From assembly GCA_012962595.1 (NCBI GenBank), contig DTXE01000556.1, forward strand, positions 1 through 15,114: a stretch of DNA of 15,114 bases, given 5' to 3'. Of the stretch, positions 1 to 14,133 are shown piece after piece. A model generated the notes under the pieces. It saw only the letters and a list, made by a program, of their open reading frames with translations. It was not told the origin of the DNA and did no database searches. This stretch comes from Syntrophaceae bacterium. Lineage in GTDB: Bacteria > Desulfobacterota > DTXE01. The translations under genes and the position numbers were made by a program. How positions within the stretch are numbered: position 1 is the stretch's first letter; each line of letters opens with the position of its first letter.

Positions 1-93
1 GAACACACCAGCCATCAAATGAGAACCTATATGATTCATTTCTGGAATTAAAAGTACCTTATCCTTTAGGCTAAACTGACCTATTTTCTGTTT
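1..93 (-). pseudogene. Partial coding trace, possibly a CoA-dehydratase/activase-like fragment
   Basis: An open frame of 31 codons runs off the left edge of the window. It contains the stretch LLIPEMNHIGSHLMAGVF. This resembles, from memory, a segment of the large 2-hydroxyacyl-CoA dehydratase activase-type proteins (IPxMNxIGxHLxAxxFR). No ATG, GTG or TTG precedes the conserved part: an in-frame stop lies at 94-96 and the first ATG is at 37-39. The 5' end is therefore either broken or begins inside the motif. It overlaps the end of the PilC-like remnant in another frame, which fits a decayed junction between gene fragments. The family call is tentative because only 31 residues are visible. 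Confidence 0.3.
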
Positions 94-2972: not shown

Positions 2973-4379
2973 ATGGCCTATCAAAGAGAGTACCAATATG
3001 ACATATTCGAAGCAGTTTTTCAATACCCGCTTCATCCTCGCCATGAACTTATTTTGCTGGGTAATCGAATTGACTGGGATAATATTCAAGATAGGCTCTC
3101 TACCTATTACTCAAGCATGGGGCGTCAAGCCAAAGATATCCGTTTGATGGTGGGCCTTCACATACTCAAGCATCGATTTAATCTCTCTGATGAAAAGGTT
3201 GTTAAAGGACTCCATGAGAATGTTTATTGGATGAGCTTTTGTGGTGTCTCTCTTAAGCCTCGGTATAGGATAAATGAAAGGGGAGAGAAACAATTTATTC
3301 CCTGTGAGTTTCTGGAAGCCTCCTCAATGACCAAATTCCGCAAAGGTATCGGTCCTGAAGGAATGCGCATAGTGGAGGAGGTGATTCGAGAACGATTGAT
3401 CTCTGAAGATAAGATCTGCCCCCGTACTCAATTAATAGATACTACCTGCATGGAGAAGAACATTGCCTATCCCACAGGGCTTCTGGATAAAGGAAGAAGG
3501 ATTCTCATCAAAACCATATCTAACATCAAAAACTATGGGGTTAAAGTTCCATCCCACTTACGCAGCTTCAAAAGGGTAAGCAAAGGGATCATCATAGAGA
3601 TAAATAAATGGGGTAAGGGAAGAAAAGAAAACATTGAAAGTGGTGCTAAGAGGCTTATTACCTATGCCCATCATATAGTAAGGCAAGTACCTAAGATCAT
3701 CCACACCACCGAGCATAAAATCAAAAGATATATAAGAAAAGGAAGAGACAAGGAAAAAATGGCCCTTGAGCGCCTGAAACACAAATTGAATGAACAAACC
3801 AAATTGGTTGAAAGGGTAATCCATCAGACCATAGAGAGATTTAAAGGAAATCACATCGCACATAAAATATTGAGTTTACATGAACCAGAGGTTGTGTGTA
3901 TCAGAAAAGGAAAACGAAAACGACCCCATGAATACGGCTCCAAAGTACTAATCTCTATAGATCGTCATGGCTATATAGTGGATCATAAGGAATATGCTTC
4001 TAATCCTTGTGATTCAAACCTCCTAGAGGCTGCTTGTCAAGGATGGGAGAATAGCGTTGGCTCCCCTGCCAAGGAGATAGGGGCTGACCGTGCCTTCCAT
4101 AGAAATCAAGATGTCAAAACACCTCATGTCTCCAAAGGAAAGAGAGTCTCAATCCATACCAAAGGTAAAGGGCCTCATACTCAAGCCAACACCTCCTGGT
4201 TTAAGCGTCTACAAAGGCTTAGAGCCAAGATAGAGCCAGTAATCAGTCACCTAAAAAATGAGCACCGAATGGACCGTTCTAGATATAAGGGATTTGAGGG
4301 AGATCAAATCAATGTAAGCTTGGCTGTTATTGCATGGAATACTAAGAAATGGAATAAAACCATGGTGTCAATGACCTGA
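2973..4379 (+). CDS. DDE transposase of the IS
   Basis: A 468-residue transposase. The N-terminus has the DUF772-like module of IS5-type enzymes: HPRHELILLGNRIDWD, then GRQAKDIRLMVGLHILKH and a motif around YWMSFCGV. The catalytic region shows the three expected acidic blocks: LIDTTCMEKN (first Asp), IGADRAFHRN (second Asp) and IEPVISHLKNEHRMDRSRYKG (Glu). A Lys/Arg-rich helical insertion lies between the first and second, near residues 200-290. The reading frame is intact, so the enzyme is probably active. The ATG at 2973 is the first possible start, as an in-frame TAA lies at 2967-2969. No good ribosome-binding site is seen, which fits the low expression usual for transposases. Confidence 0.9.
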   Translation: MAYQREYQYDIFEAVFQYPLHPRHELILLGNRIDWDNIQDRLSTYYSSMGRQAKDIRLMVGLHILKHRFNLSDEKVVKGLHENVYWMSFCGVSLKPRYRINERGEKQFIPCEFLEASSMTKFRKGIGPEGMRIVEEVIRERLISEDKICPRTQLIDTTCMEKNIAYPTGLLDKGRRILIKTISNIKNYGVKVPSHLRSFKRVSKGIIIEINKWGKGRKENIESGAKRLITYAHHIVRQVPKIIHTTEHKIKRYIRKGRDKEKMALERLKHKLNEQTKLVERVIHQTIERFKGNHIAHKILSLHEPEVVCIRKGKRKRPHEYGSKVLISIDRHGYIVDHKEYASNPCDSNLLEAACQGWENSVGSPAKEIGADRAFHRNQDVKTPHVSKGKRVSIHTKGKGPHTQANTSWFKRLQRLRAKIEPVISHLKNEHRMDRSRYKGFEGDQINVSLAVIAWNTKKWNKTMVSMT

Positions 4380-5256: not shown

Positions 5257-6105
5257 ATGGATAGGTTCAGCCGAAAGGCCGTAGCCAAGATGTTCGGGTT
5301 ATCAGAAAGCCGTTTGAGATACTGGGAGGAAACAGGATTTATCGCTGCCAGCTTAAAGGGTAAGGATGGTAGAAACTATTATAGTTTCCATGATTTGAAG
5401 GGCATTAAGACAGCGATAATACTTCTAAAGCAGGGAGTCTCTTTTAGGAGGCTTAGGAAAGGGATAAATAACTTAAAGAGATTATTGCCAGATATTGAGA
5501 ACCCTCTATCCCAACTCAGGGTTTATTTTGACGGAAAAGATTTTTTGATAGACCAGAAAGGTATCCGTTTCTATGCCAATGGTCAGGTGCTAATAGATTT
5601 TTCTGCCAACTTACAAAAGGAGGCCCAAATAAAATCCCTAGCAGGCTCTTTAAGTCCAGATGATTGGTATAGGAGAGGTTGCCAATTAGATTCTGATCCA
5701 TCCACCTTTAAACAGGCTGAGGAGGCATATCTAAGGGCCTTGGAATTAAAACCCAATTTTCCTCAGGCCCTGACAAATCTAGGGACTCTTTATTACAATA
5801 TGGGCAAGAGGAAAAAGGCTGAGAGGCTCTATCAGAAGGTACTACAAATTGACCCTCATAATTTGGAATCCAATTATAACTTAGCCAATCTCTTAGAAGA
5901 AAGAGGCAAACTTGCTCCCGCTATTGCTCATTATAAAAAAGCACTATCCCTTAAGCCAGACTTTGCCGATGCCCATTTTAATCTTGCCCTATCCTATCAA
6001 AAGGGCGGGATGAAGAAAGAGGCTAAAATACACTGGAAGATATTTATTGAGCTCGAGCCCTTTAGCCCAGATGCTAAAATAGCAAGACAATTCCTGGAAA
6101 GCTAA
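5257..6105 (+). CDS. MerR-type HTH / tetratricopeptide-repeat fusion protein
   Basis: A 282-residue protein in three parts. Residues 4-70 are a MerR-family winged HTH (FSRKAVAKMFGLSESRLRYWE, then NYYSFHDLKGIKTAI and LKQGVSFRRLRKGI). Residues 70-125 form a linker unlike the usual MerR dimerisation coil. Residues 130-280 hold about four TPR units, recognisable by repeats of A-x-x-x-Y-x-x-A-L-x-L-x-P, such as EEAYLRALELKPNFPQAL, RLYQKVLQIDP and AHYKKALSLKPDFADAHFNL. The TPRs replace a ligand-binding domain, so the input is probably a protein partner. The ATG at 5257 has AGGG nine bases upstream. The gene is divergent from the M50 protease, which suggests it may regulate that operon. No membrane segment is present. 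The target and partner are unknown. Confidence 0.8.
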   Translation: MDRFSRKAVAKMFGLSESRLRYWEETGFIAASLKGKDGRNYYSFHDLKGIKTAIILLKQGVSFRRLRKGINNLKRLLPDIENPLSQLRVYFDGKDFLIDQKGIRFYANGQVLIDFSANLQKEAQIKSLAGSLSPDDWYRRGCQLDSDPSTFKQAEEAYLRALELKPNFPQALTNLGTLYYNMGKRKKAERLYQKVLQIDPHNLESNYNLANLLEERGKLAPAIAHYKKALSLKPDFADAHFNLALSYQKGGMKKEAKIHWKIFIELEPFSPDAKIARQFLES

Positions 6106-8827: not shown

Positions 8828-9544
8828 TCATTTTTGTGGAATATTATAGTAGTCATATTTTGCATGATCTCGAACAAGCAGAAGAAACTGTTTAATCTCC
8901 TTTAAGGCTGTCTTCAAATCGTGACATTCCTTTTCTAAACCGGCATTGTCCTCCAAAACTGCTTTCAGTTGTTCTTCCAGTTCTGATTGTTTTTGAAGGA
9001 TTCTTTTTCTCTCCTTTTCTAAGTAGCTATTTTGAATCCTTAAGGCCTCATCCTCCTTTAGCCTGGATTTAAAGGAATCTCTTTCTCTTAAGGCCTCATC
9101 TCGCTCGGTGGTCAAGGTGGCAACCTTTTCTTTCAATTCTTTGTTTTCTGTTTGAAGGTCATGGATTTTTAGCAAAGCATCACTATTCTCTTCCTCAAGG
9201 TAGGTAATTTCCCGCTCCATCTCTTGGAGTCTTGCAGTGATATTACTCTGATCCTGAACCAGAGTCCTTAGTTCTTTGTTATCAGAGAGGAGTTGATTTA
9301 TGGTCTTTTCAGCTGAAGCCAGATCTTCTTCTAACGCCATTTTTATATCCTGAGTTGCCTGTAATTGAGATTGTAGGTCTTCCACAAGCCCCAAGACATC
9401 CATGTGTAGATCTTTTGCTGAAAACGTCTCTTTTTCATCTCTTCCATTTTTTTCCCCGGAAGAAATTTCTTTGACCGCTTCTGCAACCTTACTCCCCACT
9501 GTAGGCATCTTTCGGGCAACACTTCTGTCAAACCCATTAGACAT
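8828..9544 (-). CDS. Coiled-coil protein, candidate PomX-like partner of the adjacent ParA
   Basis: A 238-residue soluble protein. Residues 1-50 are polar and partly basic (MSNGFDRSVARKMPTVGSKV at the start). Residues 50-225 are a long Glu/Lys/Leu-rich coiled coil, followed by a short tail DYYNIPQK. It is the last gene of the ruv-HEAT-ParA operon. Its ribosome-binding site AGGAGGT (9555-9561) lies inside the two terminal Arg codons and stop of the ParA gene, implying coupled translation. Context and composition match PomX of Myxococcus xanthus, a coiled-coil scaffold whose short basic N-terminal peptide stimulates the ParA-type ATPase PomZ. The start here shares F5, V9, R11 and P14 with the PomX peptide as I recall it. 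PomX is longer (about 400 residues). The coiled coil is clear; the function is inference. Confidence 0.7.
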   Translation of the reverse strand: MSNGFDRSVARKMPTVGSKVAEAVKEISSGEKNGRDEKETFSAKDLHMDVLGLVEDLQSQLQATQDIKMALEEDLASAEKTINQLLSDNKELRTLVQDQSNITARLQEMEREITYLEEENSDALLKIHDLQTENKELKEKVATLTTERDEALRERDSFKSRLKEDEALRIQNSYLEKERKRILQKQSELEEQLKAVLEDNAGLEKECHDLKTALKEIKQFLLLVRDHAKYDYYNIPQK

Positions 9545-9552
9545 AGTCTCTT

Positions 9553-10587
9553 TTACCTCCTCTGAGCATAGTTAGCGAATAGCCTTGATTTGGCCTTTGA
9601 TGGCATTCCTTTTTTATGTTTTGAAAATCTTTTCCCTGTCAGATTTCTTATTTTGAAGATTTCACCAATAACCCTTTGAATATCCACCGCACCTCTTGAA
9701 TTGGGAGCATACTCAAAAATGGTCTTTCCATCACTGGATGCCTCAGCGATCTTGGTATCCTGCCCAATGGTTGTTTTTAAAAGATATTTGGAATAATGTT
9801 TTATTAAGGCCTCTCGTGACCGCCGACATATCTTATGAGATCTGTTATAGCGATTTAATAAGATATAAATATTGTCGAATGTAAAGGAAAAGTCTTCCTC
9901 CACGGTCGCCAGCGTTTCAAATAGTATCTTGAGGCCATGGTAAGATAGAAAATCGGCCAGAACCGGAATTATTAGATCGTTGGCGGCCAAAATGGCATTG
10001 AGATTCAAAAGTCCCATACTAGGTGAGGCATCCATTACGATAACTTCATAATCCTTCTCAATGGGCTTAAGAGCCTTTTTTAATCTGAATTCTCTGGCAT
10101 TCAAGGGTTGAAGCGCAAGTTCGATTGGAGATAAACTGAGGTTAGAAGGCAACAAATCTAGGGTGGGAAGTATAGTTTTCATAATAATGTCCCTGATGTC
10201 CTCTTTGAGAATGAGGGCATTATATAAGGTCTTCCCATCGTGTGAGTCATAGCCCAGACACTGAGTTAAATGGCCCTGAGGGTCCAAGTCCACAAGTAGT
10301 GTGTGGATGCCCATTTCGGCCAATCTAAATCCGTAAGATGCTGAGAGACTACTTTTACCTGTTCCACCCTTGAAGTTAAGGAAAAGCTGTCTTCTATGGG
10401 ACTTAATTGGAGAAGGGATTTTCAGGTATGTCCTATATCGAGAGAGGTCCTCTGGCAAGTAATACCGAACTTTGCCATTACGCCTGGCTGGAGGTACTAT
10501 CCCCCTTAGTTCTTTTTCCAGTAGCTCCTTACTGGAGATACCCAATAGTTCGGCAAACCGTGCAGGCGTATATACTACGGGATACAA
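9553..10587 (-). CDS. ParA/MinD-like ATPase with N-terminal MerR-like HTH, candidate PomZ-like
   Basis: A 344-residue protein. Residues 5-56 resemble a MerR-type HTH (YTPARFAELLGISSKELL, VRYYLPEDLSRYRTYL). The ATPase follows: deviant Walker A KGGTGKSS (73-80, signature Lys73), LLVDLDPQG (97-105), IVMDASPSMG (183-192, Walker B Asp186) and the C-terminal TKIAEASSDGKTIFEYAPNS block. The tail from about residue 317 is strongly basic, which could aid non-specific DNA binding. Such ATPases form ATP-dependent DNA-bound dimers that position cargo on the nucleoid. The start is TTG (10585-10587), chosen because GGAGG lies 8 nt upstream and no ATG or GTG precedes the HTH. The gene starts 2 nt after the HEAT-protein stop. 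There is no ParB gene or obvious parS nearby, so it is unlikely to be a classical chromosome-segregation ParA. Confidence 0.88.
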   Translation of the reverse strand: MYPVVYTPARFAELLGISSKELLEKELRGIVPPARRNGKVRYYLPEDLSRYRTYLKIPSPIKSHRRQLFLNFKGGTGKSSLSASYGFRLAEMGIHTLLVDLDPQGHLTQCLGYDSHDGKTLYNALILKEDIRDIIMKTILPTLDLLPSNLSLSPIELALQPLNAREFRLKKALKPIEKDYEVIVMDASPSMGLLNLNAILAANDLIIPVLADFLSYHGLKILFETLATVEEDFSFTFDNIYILLNRYNRSHKICRRSREALIKHYSKYLLKTTIGQDTKIAEASSDGKTIFEYAPNSRGAVDIQRVIGEIFKIRNLTGKRFSKHKKGMPSKAKSRLFANYAQRR

Positions 10588-10589
10588 AA

Positions 10590-11294
10590 TTAGTTCCTCC
10601 GGTTATCTTTTCCTACCGTAGCTTTCCTTTGCCACCACATCTTCCACTCCCTTATCTCCCTTTCCAGTGTTAGTATCTTATGATTGGCCTCCAGTTTTAC
10701 AGGACCAACAATCCTTCTTAGATAGCGTAATGCCATATCACGAACCACTTCATGAGAATCGTCAAGGGCCCTAATTAGATGGGGCATGGCAATATCTTGG
10801 GAAAGGCTGACTGTTGCCCAAAGGGCCACCTTCCTAACGCCTTTGTCAGTATCATTCAGTAAATCGAGGATGATAGGGATTGCCTCATGAATCTGATTAC
10901 ATGCCAGATATGTGACAGCCCTCCTTCGAACAAATGGTGAACTACTCTTCAAGGACTTTTCAAATTCTAATAGCCCTGTGTGGCCTATGTGGTGAAGTCC
11001 TCGCAATGCTTGCATAACAACACATTCATCTTTATCTTCCAATGCCTCCCTTAGTAAGGGGATTAGAGAGCTATCTTTAAATTTAGAGATGATTTGGATT
11101 GCTAATGACCTAACACTTCCATCGTTATCCTTGGCAGCCTTAACTACGTGAGGCAAGATGGTTTCATGGCGCCTATTTTGGAGAAATCTAAGGCTTAGGC
11201 ACCTAACCTTGGGGTCAGGATCTAAGAGGTCAGAAAGGGCTTGTTCAAGGCTTACCCCACGGTATTTCTCGCCAATGATTGGTTCCTTATCCAT
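10590..11294 (-). CDS. HEAT-repeat protein, candidate PomY-like
   Basis: A 234-residue, almost entirely alpha-helical repeat protein with about five or six HEAT/PBS-lyase-type units. Each has a D/N-x-x-x-x-V-R-x-x-A pattern, for example DPDPKVRCLSLRFL, DNDGSVRSLAIQII, SSSPFVRRRAVTYL, DTDKGVRKVALWA and DSHEVVRDMALRYL. It ends with a Trp-rich helix (EIREWKMWWQRK). No signal peptide or membrane segment is present. Repeats of this kind act as protein-binding scaffolds. It begins 1 nt after the ruvB stop and ends 2 nt before the ParA start, so the three are tightly coupled. In the Myxococcus Pom system the HEAT-containing PomY bridges PomX and stimulates PomZ; PomY is much larger and also has coiled-coil and Pro-rich regions. 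The repeat call is firm; the role is inferred from context. Confidence 0.8.
   Translation of the reverse strand: MDKEPIIGEKYRGVSLEQALSDLLDPDPKVRCLSLRFLQNRRHETILPHVVKAAKDNDGSVRSLAIQIISKFKDSSLIPLLREALEDKDECVVMQALRGLHHIGHTGLLEFEKSLKSSSPFVRRRAVTYLACNQIHEAIPIILDLLNDTDKGVRKVALWATVSLSQDIAMPHLIRALDDSHEVVRDMALRYLRRIVGPVKLEANHKILTLEREIREWKMWWQRKATVGKDNRRN
10596..10600 (-). promoter_or_regulatory. Ribosome-binding site deciding the TTG start of the ParA-like gene
   Basis: GGAGG on the minus strand, 8 nt before the TTG at 10585-10587. It lies in the last codons of the HEAT-protein gene and is the main support for using TTG. Confidence 0.75.
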
Positions 11295-11295
11295 C

Positions 11296-12315
11296 TTAAA
11301 CCTTATTGTTTTCTTCCAAACTTTTTAATTTCTTCCCGAAGTGTTCATAAGCAAGCCTAGTTACTACCCTCCCTCGAGGGGTGCGGTTAAGATAACCACT
11401 TTGGATAAGAAATGGTTCATAAACATCCTCTATAGTATCCTTCTCTTCGCAGATGGCTGCGGATAGAGCATCAACGCCTATAGGGCCACCATCAAACTTA
11501 TCAATAATGGTCAGCAGAATCTTCCTATCCATTTTATCAAGGCCCTTTTCATCCACCTCCAGCATATGTAAGGCCTTATCTGCCACCTCTCTGGTTATAG
11601 TCCCGTTAGCCCTTACTTGTGCATAGTCCCTTACTCTCCGAAGTAAGCGTAGGGCTACACGTGGAGTCCCCCTGGATCTCCGAGCTATTTCCCTGGCCCC
11701 CCCTTTTTCAATACCGATAGTCAGTAAATTGGCTGAACGTAGGATAATAGATTCGATTTCCTCCATTCTGTAAAAGTCAAATCTGAAGACCACACCAAAT
11801 CGATCCCTCAAAGGAGAAGTAAGAAGCCCTGCTCGGGTGGTGGCGCCTATAAGGGTAAATTTCGGAAGATTCAATTTGATGGAACGTGCACTGGGGCCTT
11901 GGCCAATTATGAGGTCTAACTTAAATTCTTCCATAGCTGGATAGAGTATTTCTTCTACCACATGAGGGAGACGATGCATTTCATCAATAAACAGTACATC
12001 GTGATTCTTAAGGTTGGTGAGTATGGCAGCCAAATCGCCTGGACGTTCAATAACTGGACCCGCGGTAGCCCTGATATTCACACCTAATTCCCGGGAGATG
12101 ATGTAAGCTAGAGTCGTTTTACCTAGGCCTGGATACCCATAGAAAAGTACGTGATCCAAAGATTCGCCCCTTTCCTTGGCAGCCTCGATAAATATCTTCA
12201 AGCTCGTTTTTATCTCTTCTTGACCAATGTATTCATTTAGGGTTTTAGGACGAAGATTAAGCTCATAGGTAAAATCTTCCTCTCTATCTCTGCCCACAAT
12301 GGCATCCTCTTTCAT
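11296..12315 (-). CDS. ruvB: Holliday junction branch-migration ATPase RuvB
   Basis: A 339-residue AAA+ helicase, full family length. It opens with the usual [12 protein letters not shown]. The Walker A reads GYPGLGKTT (60-68), where most RuvB proteins have GPPGLGKTT. Walker B is FIDEMH (109-114), sensor 1 lies in IGATTRAG, the arginine-finger region is SPLRDRFG (167-174) and sensor 2 lies in RRSRGTPR. The C-terminal winged helix ends with TPRGRVVT. RuvB forms hexameric rings on DNA arms flanking the RuvA tetramer and drives branch migration. It follows ruvA by 26 nt and is followed after 1 nt by the HEAT-protein gene. The start codon lacks a strong Shine-Dalgarno, so coupling to ruvA is likely. 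Confidence 0.97.
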
Positions 12316-12341: not shown

Positions 12342-12947
12342 CTATTTTAAAAAGGAGCTTAAAGTCTTTCTAAGAAGTTCCTCTATGGTTATCTTTCCGG
12401 AATTTTCTTCCCATATCTTGCTCAATGCCCTTCTGGCCTCTCTTTTGTCATAACCCAAGTTGGCCAAGGCAGAGAGGGCATCCCTTAAAATTTCCCTCCC
12501 ATCAAACTGTCCCAGGCTTTCTCGCTCTGCTTGGGATATACTATGGGCCACCTTTTCCTTAAGCTCAAAAAGTATGCGCTTGGCTGTCTTTTTCCCCACC
12601 CCTGGAATGGCATCTATTCTGTCCATATCACCTGTTAATATGGAGCTTCTGAGTTCGTGAGGAGATATTCCAGACAAGATGTTTATAGCAAGCTTAGGGC
12701 CGATTCCTGCTACATTTAAAAGGGTGAGGAACATCTCCTTTTCGTCAGGGGTAGAAAATCCATACAACTTGAGAGAATCCTTCTGTACATAGGTCTGGAT
12801 ATGGAGTGTCACTTTATCCCCGGGATCTGGCAATTCATAAAAGGTAGAAAGAGAGATGTCAATTCCGTACCCTACCCCTTGATTTACCGATACGATAACA
12901 TGTCCCGGAGATTTGAAAAGAAGCTTACCTTCAATATGAGCAATCAT
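12342..12947 (-). CDS. ruvA: Holliday junction binding protein RuvA
   Basis: A 201-residue protein of normal length. Residues 1-62 form the OB-fold domain ([28 protein letters not shown]). The middle carries two helix-hairpin-helix motifs, [13 protein letters not shown] and [13 protein letters not shown], which bind the junction arms. A flexible acidic/polar linker leads to domain III ([28 protein letters not shown]), which contacts RuvB. The ATG overlaps the ruvC stop by four bases (ATGA), a classic coupled arrangement. As a tetramer it holds the junction square and recruits RuvB. Confidence 0.97.
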
Positions 12948-13426
12948 CCCTCTTTAGGCTCCTTAGATGAATGTATAGAACAAATGGCTACCGCCAGGGC
13001 ATCTGAGACATTATGTTCTGCAACTTTGTTAAGACTCAGCAAGGATTTGACCATGTGTTGCACCTGATTCTTAGTGGCCATACCAAAACCCACCACAGAT
13101 TTTTTAATCGATAGGGGACTATACTCTTGGACGACCAATTCTGCATTGGAAACTGCCAAAAGAACAACTCCCCGCACTTCACCTAGCCTTAGCAAGCTTT
13201 TCACACTTTTTGCATAGAAAGGATGTTCTATGGCCACAGCATCGGGAGAAAATTGCTCAATAATCTCTTCCACAGAATCATATATTTTCTTTAATCTAGA
13301 GGGGAGAGGTTCTTTTAGGGAAAAGGAAATACTTCCACTGGCAACATGGATCAAATGGTCACCTTGGTTTTCCACGATTCCATAACCCGTGGTATAAGAT
13401 CCTGGATCAATACCTAAAATACGCAT
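12944..13426 (-). CDS. ruvC: Holliday junction resolvase RuvC
   Basis: A 160-residue endonuclease of the RNase H-like fold that resolves four-way junctions as a dimer. ILGIDPGS (Asp7) and VAIEHPFYAKS (Glu67) give the first two metal ligands. The C-terminal motif reads EHNVSDALAVAI with Asp142. The residue three before Asp142, normally Asp (E. coli Asp138) or His (Thermus), is Asn139, with His138 beside it; this could alter metal binding. The Tyr-Ser-Pro segment EYSPLSIKK and the VVGFGMATKNQVQ loop are otherwise typical. The ATG is fixed by the conserved N-terminus. A purine-rich AAGGGGAGT immediately precedes it, rather close to the start. It overlaps ruvA by 4 bp and lies 74 nt after the STAS-like gene. 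Confidence 0.95.
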   Translation of the reverse strand: MRILGIDPGSYTTGYGIVENQGDHLIHVASGSISFSLKEPLPSRLKKIYDSVEEIIEQFSPDAVAIEHPFYAKSVKSLLRLGEVRGVVLLAVSNAELVVQEYSPLSIKKSVVGFGMATKNQVQHMVKSLLSLNKVAEHNVSDALAVAICSIHSSKEPKEG

Positions 13427-13500: not shown

Positions 13501-14133
13501 TTATATCAGTGACTTATATATATATTGCCTTCCTCTATCTGGCAAATTCTGAACGCATCTTTTTACCAGCCGAGCCTTATAAAGATTGAGGAGTTTGGTG
13601 CTGGCAGAGTTGATTTTCATGTTTCTCAGATTGGCTAATTCTCTCGCCGAAAGAATCTGTCTTTCCATAACAATGTGTAACACCTCTTTCAGGTAGGGGC
13701 TCAGAATGCCTAGAATATGCCAGCCATTGACTAACCTTACGGGTCTTCCTCTTATTTCTTTATTCCTGCCTTGAGACTCACGGGCAGGTTTTATGGACAA
13801 GAGATGGAGTTTTTTCCTCTCCAGAGCTACATGGATATTTTCTTCCTGAGTCTTGGTTAATCCAGTTACGGCTATAAACTTATCGCCGTATTCCATAGCG
13901 TTTAGTCTCACGATCAATTTAGCTATGATTTCATCAGCATAGGAATAGTCTATAGGACCTACCCTCGAAAAATCGAGAATTACTACTATTCCCTCCTGTT
14001 CCCATTTCAGTTTAGACTCAATTACCTCTCTAATCATTTTCCCGATCTCTCGGGTAGTGAGGTTCTTGTAGGTATAAGTTGAATTATGACTCACAATTTC
14101 TTTGAGCTGGTAGATTTTATATGTATTCTTCAT
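13501..14133 (-). CDS. STAS-like (DUF4325-type) / winged-helix protein
   Basis: A 210-residue protein. Residues 18-115 resemble the STAS-like DUF4325 domain: YKNLTTREIGKMI, then GIVVILDFSRVGPIDYSYADEII around residues 48-70, then FIAVTGLTKTQEENIHVAL. Residues 145-210 look like a MarR/ArsR-type winged helix (LKEVLHIVMERQILSARELANL, KLLNLYKARLVKR, then a wing RGRQYIYKSL). DUF4325 domains are linked to phospho-relay or anti-sigma-type signalling, but this fusion's role is not established. It interrupts the common yebC-ruvC neighbourhood and has its own promoter with a perfect palindrome over the predicted transcription start, so autoregulation is plausible. The ribosome-binding site is weak. Domain calls are by eye. 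Confidence 0.65.
   Translation of the reverse strand: MKNTYKIYQLKEIVSHNSTYTYKNLTTREIGKMIREVIESKLKWEQEGIVVILDFSRVGPIDYSYADEIIAKLIVRLNAMEYGDKFIAVTGLTKTQEENIHVALERKKLHLLSIKPARESQGRNKEIRGRPVRLVNGWHILGILSPYLKEVLHIVMERQILSARELANLRNMKINSASTKLLNLYKARLVKRCVQNLPDRGRQYIYKSLI

Follow-up and report, generated by a model that had tools for sequence, protein, structure and literature searches.

Does the PomXYZ positioning system of Myxococcus xanthus have a relative outside the myxobacteria, and what would such a relative position? The question is raised by three genes in a 15,114-nucleotide stretch of DNA from a Syntrophaceae bacterium (the window), in which a sequence-only reading had seen a tightly coupled HEAT-repeat protein, ParA-like ATPase and coiled-coil protein. 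The three open reading frames are confirmed, all on the minus strand, with 2 nt between the first and the second and 8 nt between the second and the third. The first (10590..11294) encodes a protein of 234 amino acids with HEAT repeats (HEAT_2, Pfam, 2.5e-31) and a short W-rich C-terminal stretch, which we call PomY-like from these repeats and its position. The second (9553..10587) starts with a TTG preceded by GGAGG and encodes a ParA/MinD-type ATPase of 344 amino acids (AAA_31, Pfam, 4.1e-41). The third (8828..9544) encodes a coiled-coil protein of 238 amino acids. On the same strand, they are preceded by yebC, ruvC (12944..13426; TIGR00228, 5.3e-47, over its cut-off), ruvA (12342..12947; TIGR00084, 1.9e-59) and ruvB (11296..12315; NF000868, 1.1e-155), with 1 nt separating the ruvB stop (11296) from the ATG of the HEAT gene.

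On sequence comparison, the ATPase is an ortholog of PomZ. Its residues 5-310 are 50% identical to M. xanthus PomZ, and over the ATPase domain the identity is 52%, compared with 26-34% for 27 other ParAs. In a tree of 41 PomZ sequences (57 of the 98 were omitted for thinning) and 22 generic ParAs (after removal of five with long branches), the window protein and M. xanthus PomZ form one clade apart from the generic ParAs, with support of 100/100; the grouping with an unrelated subfamily that would have spoken against the sequence-only reading is not seen. The node joining the window to family f7 has support of 97/96 in this tree. The tree with all 27 generic ParAs places two of these generics (L005 and L006) inside PomZ, on a branch of length 7.72. 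Loci in which no PomZ reading frame was called (L032, L039, L058, L114, L120 and L129) are absent from the residue comparison and from both trees, and the Planctomycetota PomZ-like matches L142-L148 lie outside the trees.

The deviant Walker A motif KGGTGK (residues 73-78; 10354..10371, minus strand) is invariant in 26 aligned PomZ proteins. The ATP-site and DNA-binding residues are likewise as in M. xanthus, with equivalents of K61, K66, D90 and K268 in the aligned columns; K66 and D90 are also present in all 27 generic ParAs, and the K268 column contains lysine in 6 and arginine in 20. In the pocket for helix alpha5 of PomY, at positions taken from a structure model of the M. xanthus proteins (available part of PMC13170346), six of the eight residues are as in M. 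xanthus, with 4-6 in other PomZ groups and 0-3 in the 27 generics. The pocket is kept despite a HEAT protein without the alpha5 region. The PomX-peptide pocket, with 6 of 13 residues in the window, 4-6 in other non-myxobacterial PomZ and 1-5 in generic ParAs (two of which have 5), is a weak mark because the PomZ and generic ranges overlap.

Beyond what had been seen before, the PomZ N-terminus contains a weak MerR-like helix-turn-helix (residues 6-51; 10435..10572, minus strand; MerR_1 E 0.01, HTH_17 E 0.014, below the curated cut-off). The PomZ of locus L070 matches at 6.7e-10, and no such motif was reported for M. xanthus PomZ in the same profile search. A helix-turn-helix followed by an ATPase domain is also the arrangement of the plasmid ParAs of PDB entries 3ez2 and 3ez9, which we take to be 'type Ia'; unlike these, the window ParA has PomX and a HEAT protein, not ParB, as its partners.

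The coiled-coil protein, judged in the same way, is a PomX homolog. This is indicated by its position, an alignment with 12 relatives, its N-terminal peptide and its Pfam matches, which are solely to coiled-coil-type families, none over cut-off. When profiles are compared, the match to PomX of Myxococcota (E 2.9e-6, probability 88) is inflated by coiled-coil composition; being composition-driven, this and the coiled-coil PDB matches are given little weight. The coiled coil lies C-terminally, and a scaffold role is predicted for it. The protein opens with a PomX-type peptide, MSNGFDRSVARKMPTV (9497..9544, minus strand), another feature additional to the sequence-only reading. In M. xanthus, the N-terminal peptide of PomX switches on the PomZ ATPase. 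A profile made from 11 distinct Myxococcota peptides scores the window peptide at 5.0, against 2.7 for the best start outside the peptide genes among 1715 reading-frame starts, a profile with which several true relatives score under unrelated starts. K13 and R15, essential in M. xanthus (available part of PMC7993993), are replaced by M13 and T15, with R11 and K12 as nearby basic residues; K12 and K/R15 are frequent in the peptides of relatives outside the myxobacteria. Also absent from the 238-residue protein is the long Ala/Pro-rich region (residues 27-182 of the 404-residue M. xanthus PomX), which varies in length and sequence among PomX homologs (same source, available part). The f7 mini-activator had no match elsewhere in the window's genome.

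The HEAT protein appears to be PomY-like by position; its sequence by itself is not enough to call it PomY. Homology leads to an M. xanthus locus with the order pomY-pomZ-pomX, with the ATPase in the middle as had been claimed and the HEAT gene of the window in the place of pomY; the identity of pomX there agrees with published primer parts, which fall inside the 404-residue coiled-coil reading frame (available part of PMC7993993). PomY consists of a coiled coil, HEAT repeats, a disordered region with alpha5 and a winged helix (available parts of PMC10307791 and PMC13170346), with a published end residue of 682. The window protein is of HEAT type only, and its 234 residues leave no room for the N-terminal coiled coil, the disordered region or the C-terminal winged helix, so the partners are indeed smaller, as first noted. 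A HEAT-protein profile, run on myxobacterial genomes, ranks PomY first in G075, second in G076 and only as the eighth distinct frame in M. xanthus (G077), where PomY was recognised by frame length and position; orthology from sequence alone is thus not shown.

The trio is more than a chance association. In the best 80 of 351 relatives, a HEAT gene lies directly upstream of pomZ in 72 loci and a gene with a PomX-type peptide, starting within 0.7 kb, lies downstream in 79 (75 called by pattern, 4 by eye). The pattern-found peptides in these 80 start within 629 bases of PomZ; the 27 generic ParA control loci, with 1193-1548 bases downstream, contain none. Among the 104 loci scanned for neighbours and peptide, 19 or more duplicate another locus in the last 300 residues of PomZ; the counts out of 80 refer to loci L032-L111, which contain one such pair (L090, L096). 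Pom relatives are also present in two further families of Desulfobacterota, in Latescibacterota and in Planctomycetota. The class-level survey comprised only the window's own genome, and aligning two short pieces of DNA yielded nothing. Nothing of plasmid or prophage kind was found among the scanned neighbours of the Latescibacterota cassette. The literature searched contains no description of Pom outside the myxobacteria.

Other positioning systems share parts of this design. ParABS has the same ParA fold, a nucleoid-bound ATPase and activation by the partner's N-terminal peptide (available part of PMC13170346); it differs in that PomZ forms a clade apart from the 22 generic ParAs and that the window's assembly (91% complete) contains no ParB match. 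MinCDE also combines a ParA/MinD ATPase and an activating peptide in division placement, and the PomX peptide has been modelled at a MinE-like site (available part of PMC13170346). Unlike in MinCDE, the track would be the nucleoid, not the membrane, and MinC over cut-off is found in none of 22 PomZ genomes. Its absence is not telling, because in a sample of 16 genomes of the phylum without PomZ, 14 also have no MinC over cut-off; in this MinC search, the genomes of L004 and L065 (G031 and G071) may be one. In carboxysome positioning by McdAB, a ParA-type ATPase and a self-assembling partner also work on the nucleoid. McdA (chain 6noo) differs in matching the ATPase part of window PomZ only.

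The PomZ clade, the PomX-type peptide and the M. xanthus gene order support the minimal Pom-like system that had been proposed, and we have good confidence that the trio is a Pom system in compact form, which would act at mid-nucleoid and most likely mark the place of the Z-ring. Extrapolating from M. xanthus work, ATP-bound PomZ dimers would bind nucleoid DNA non-specifically, while PomX coiled coils would assemble into a cluster that serves as a docking platform for the HEAT protein. The PomX peptide would stimulate ATP hydrolysis and release of PomZ, and the cluster would therefore reach mid-nucleoid by biased diffusion. There, it may recruit FtsZ and mark the division site. Confidence is lowest for this last step, since the window HEAT protein lacks the PomY coiled coil, without which M. 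xanthus forms neither condensates nor clusters at constrictions. By analogy, the Z-ring is probably the cargo, a judgement we hold somewhat less firmly than that of a Pom system as such; the window's genome has an FtsZ fragment at a contig edge (E 4.9e-29). Z-ring positioning is the Pom function in the literature searched, M. xanthus PomZ also interacts with FtsZ (available part of PMC13170346), and an FtsZ match above cut-off is present in 10 of the 12 PomZ genomes examined for it, including Latescibacterota G072 and G073.

These observations count against another cargo, such as the chromosome origin or a replication or repair assembly, moved by the same PomX/PomZ mechanism, with FtsZ recruitment through a longer PomY as a later myxobacterial addition. 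We regard this as possible, if clearly less likely than the Z-ring. Four loci, two from Latescibacterota and two from Planctomycetota (L047, L069, L070, L072), have PomX and PomZ but no HEAT gene upstream, and one such Planctomycetota genome (G066) has no FtsZ match. Latescibacterota PomX contains a DnaA_N domain (L070, 4.4e-7; L072, 4.5e-13), and 35 deltaproteobacterial loci have short PomY-like proteins. Neighbouring genes, as raw counts, may point the same way: ruvCAB in the window, priA in 19 of 23 f32 loci, and an XRE gene in 18 of 39 loci (L073-L111) in the position of ddiA, a DNA damage response co-regulator that adjoins pomXYZ in M. xanthus (available part of PMC12288472).

The same ddiA, the 1-nt ruvB-pomY spacing and a junction in which a sequence scan found no promoter-like or terminator-like site would suit a repair checkpoint, in which co-transcription with ruvCAB would let the state of recombination influence where this lineage divides. 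We consider this improbable. The scan yields fewer sites than in shuffled sequence, which leaves a blank junction with little weight, and operon membership does not demonstrate regulation. The pom genes of the window are co-directional with ruvCAB, unlike in M. xanthus; beyond the window, ruv is near pom in 1 of 80 loci (best 80 of 351; up to 8 kb of flank per locus), convergently. Conservation of the gene order holds in these loci for the HEAT-ParA-coiled-coil part and fails for ruvB; ruv coupling as a conserved trait is rejected, and the suggested tie to ruvCAB is not supported. Still less probable is that the ATPase is a common ParA of chromosome or plasmid type, with HEAT and coiled-coil neighbours unrelated to it: TIGR03453 RepA is the best NCBIfam match (115.9 bits, far under the cut-off of 348.45) and the helix-turn-helix resembles that of plasmid ParA (chain 3ez9 matched from profile position 6), but the conserved trio, PomZ clade, PomX-type peptide and lack of a ParB match in the window's assembly argue against it, and a plain chromosomal ParA is rejected on tree, identity and gene context.

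With the trio read as a compact Pom system, a broader history can be tentatively suggested. Rather than originating in the myxobacteria, Pom may be an old nucleoid-positioning machine of PomZ and a PomX-type activator in Desulfobacterota, Latescibacterota, Planctomycetota and Myxococcota, serving first replication or repair assemblies, with FtsZ recruitment arriving stepwise with PomY, from none through HEAT-only to the full-length protein of myxobacteria. Because systems exist in nature whose PomY is HEAT-only or missing, comparison allows the core to be separated from added parts: PomZ and the PomX peptide form the core, and the PomY coiled coil, alpha5 and winged helix are seemingly additions. 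For some Desulfobacterota, the trio is a testable candidate for division placement.

On the minus strand of the window, the genes run in the order yebC, a STAS-like gene, ruvC, ruvA, ruvB, a HEAT-repeat gene (10590-11294), a ParA gene (9553-10587) and a coiled-coil gene (8828-9544). The ruvB and HEAT genes are 1 nt apart, and the gaps within the trio are 2 nt (HEAT-ParA) and 8 nt (ParA-coiled coil), as claimed in the sequence-only reading. The STAS-like gene (13501-14133, minus strand) has a possible HTH; its DUF4325 match (E 0.0011) is below the cut-off. The window also contains TPR repeats fused to a MerR HTH (5257-6105) and an uninterrupted DDE-type transposase ORF (2973-4379; DUF772, DDE_Tnp_1). 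The genome assembly (2.09 Mb, 564 contigs) is 91% complete, and a ParA search of it returned the window ParA and one further weak match (E 2.6e-5).

Searching named genomes with the window ParA yielded 351 relatives. The 80 best were retained; they range over Syntrophaceae, other deltaproteobacterial assemblies, Latescibacterota, Planctomycetota and many Myxococcaceae. In Myxococcus xanthus (locus L090), the ParA match is flanked by a HEAT-repeat ORF (724 amino acids from the first GTG) and a 404-amino-acid coiled-coil ORF. Parts of the pomX mutagenesis primers in the accessible text of PMC7993993 map within the latter, as does the tail of another primer given there beside them, which falls on the stop codon; one 12-mer has one additional match elsewhere. 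The mapping of the pomX primer sequences therefore identifies the locus as pomY-pomZ-pomX, which is the HEAT-ParA-coiled-coil order of the window trio.

The ATPase domain of the window PomZ is 52% identical to that of M. xanthus PomZ, compared with 26-34% for 27 other (generic) ParAs of the phylum. In a tree of 41 PomZ and 22 generic ParAs, the window protein groups with M. xanthus PomZ in a clade supported at 100/100, placing it in the subfamily expected of a Pom system. Within it, support is 97/96 for the window with f7, 100/100 for f32 and 92/95 for the myxobacterial group, f7 and f32 being two further families of the phylum with PomZ relatives. Members of f7 are deposited under the names Syntrophaceae or Deltaproteobacteria, so the phylum is probably Desulfobacterota. 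A first tree, with all 27 generic ParAs, placed two long-branch generics inside PomZ; the Planctomycetota matches L142-L148 were left out of the PomZ trees. The ParAs of loci L005 and L006 match only from residue 67-68, are 38-40% identical to the window PomZ and have a very long branch.

The available part of a 2026 modelling paper (PMC13170346) lists PomZ residues that lie close to PomY alpha5 and others close to the PomX peptide. In the alpha5 set, as listed there, the window has 6 of 8 residues identical to M. xanthus, against 0-3 in the 27 generic ParAs. The listed peptide set gives 6 of 13 for the window, 4-6 for other PomZ and 1-5 for the generic ParAs; because these ranges overlap, it does not separate PomZ from other ParAs. 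A MerR-like HTH at the N-terminus scores weakly in the window PomZ (E 0.01) and clearly in the PomZ of Latescibacterota locus L070 (6.7e-10); the domain search reported none in M. xanthus PomZ. The only solved chains matching the HTH part of the PomZ profile at E 1e-10 are the plasmid ParAs 3ez9, 3ez2 and 3ez7.

M. xanthus PomX starts with MKKAFEQNVSRAKPRLRLG and the window coiled-coil protein with MSNGFDRSVARKMP. Residues 1-22 of the former are enough for PomZ activation, with K13 and R15 essential, according to the accessible text of PMC7993993; the window PomX has M at 13 and T at 15, with R11 and K12 adjacent. Among the best 80 of the 351 relatives, a simple pattern locates the peptide start in 75 loci, at 36-629 bases downstream of the PomZ match; the start was read by eye in four more (L066, L073, L097, L101), leaving L084 as the sole exception to both. 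None of the 27 generic ParA loci has it in the 1193-1548 bases available downstream. When 1715 ORF starts from the window and other loci were scored with a profile built from 11 distinct Myxococcota peptides, pomZ-adjoining peptide genes occupied ranks 1-29 (the window 28-29), and unrelated starts began at rank 30. Several f32 and f7 starts rank lower, among or below unrelated starts, the low f7 scores being partly due to an uncertain start codon.

In f7, pomX is usually the second gene after pomZ, and the preceding 110-amino-acid gene (for example L033:8947-9279) starts with its own PomX-type peptide in 12 of 13 named loci; in L034 this is MVDEFTNNVAQKFPNT, followed by PWDV. From its sequence, this gene would encode a miniature second activator; a search of the window's genome for it found none. 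Another motif, PW[DN][VI], comes after the peptide in 22 of 23 f32 loci, in the Latescibacterota loci and in five Planctomycetota loci, and is absent from the window PomX. In Latescibacterota locus L135, peptide-bearing genes flank PomZ on both sides. Ten Planctomycetota PomZ loci (L139-L148) divide into three with a clear peptide, four with a weaker GF..xAP start and three with neither. In L144, L145, L147 and L148, HTH-ParAs are followed by proteins starting GF.K[SN]AP, with AWD[VI]D next in three of the four; these are possibly a more distant form of PomX-type activator.

A HEAT gene lies upstream of pomZ in 72 of the best 80 loci (of 351 relatives). Four of the other eight reach a contig end within 377 bases (L051, L088, L091, L094), and L047 and L069 (Planctomycetota) and L070 and L072 (Latescibacterota) have none over 1.6-8 kb. 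The ORF measures 215-277 amino acids, once 344, in 35 deltaproteobacterial loci within L032-L068, and mostly 400-840 in the other 37, being shorter in L097 and L108 (the latter at a contig end). In M. xanthus PomY, the coiled coil is required for condensing, and clusters without it are not at constrictions (PMC10307791, accessible part), while the C-terminal part activates PomZ (PMC13170346, available part); unlike PomY, the window protein has neither. The window HEAT profile ranks PomY first in myxobacterial genome G075, second in G076 and as the eighth distinct frame in M. xanthus. It does not single out PomY, so the suggested PomY counterpart is upheld by gene position upstream of pomZ but not by sequence profile.

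Of 395 genomes sampled from the phylum, 24 have PomZ (E <= 1e-60), all of them from the window's family, f7 or f32; in a count within f7, 14 of 17 genomes have it. It is also present in 4 of 64 Latescibacterota and 10 of 246 Planctomycetota genomes sampled. None of 22 PomZ genomes has MinC over the cut-off, G073 having a weak match under it. Since just 2 of the 16 phylum members searched that lack PomZ have MinC over the cut-off, its absence is not specific to PomZ genomes. Among 12 PomZ genomes searched, FtsZ is over the cut-off in 10 and ParB is present in 11, the window's genome having an FtsZ fragment at a contig edge and no ParB match. Planctomycetota genome G066 (L047) has PomX and PomZ, no upstream HEAT gene and no FtsZ match; therefore its cargo is probably not the Z-ring.

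The sequence-only reading also raised a possible tie to DNA repair. Repair or replication genes are seen beside several pom loci, a recurrence that may be due to chance. The window pom genes adjoin ruvCAB, and in 19 of the 23 f32 loci the pom operon and priA are arranged divergently. An XRE gene upstream of the pom genes in 18 of 39 loci (L073-L111) is by position the putative ddiA, a DNA-damage co-regulator reported to lie beside pomXYZ (PMC12288472, accessible part). In Latescibacterota loci L070:2666-6493 and L072:5546-9138, PomZ is preceded by related genes (a LexA-like S24/HTH repressor in L070, its L072 counterpart 79% identical) and followed by a PomX-type protein that ends in a DnaA_N domain. 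Most f7 loci have no such neighbour.

The accessible parts of the papers concerned describe the Pom system as conserved in myxobacteria, where PomY orthologs were looked for (PMC13170346), and report no PomZ in Gemmatimonadota (PMC11271474) and no such system yet in Bdellovibrio (PMC11318664). We found no description of Pom outside myxobacteria in the literature searched, which took in a minority of subscription papers, and an earlier report may exist. The PomZ tree and identity, the PomX peptide and the gene order bear out a Pom-like module in a non-myxobacterial genome: the window trio is a genuine, compact Pom system. By analogy, it would follow the M. xanthus mechanism, with the Z-ring as the first candidate for its cargo.
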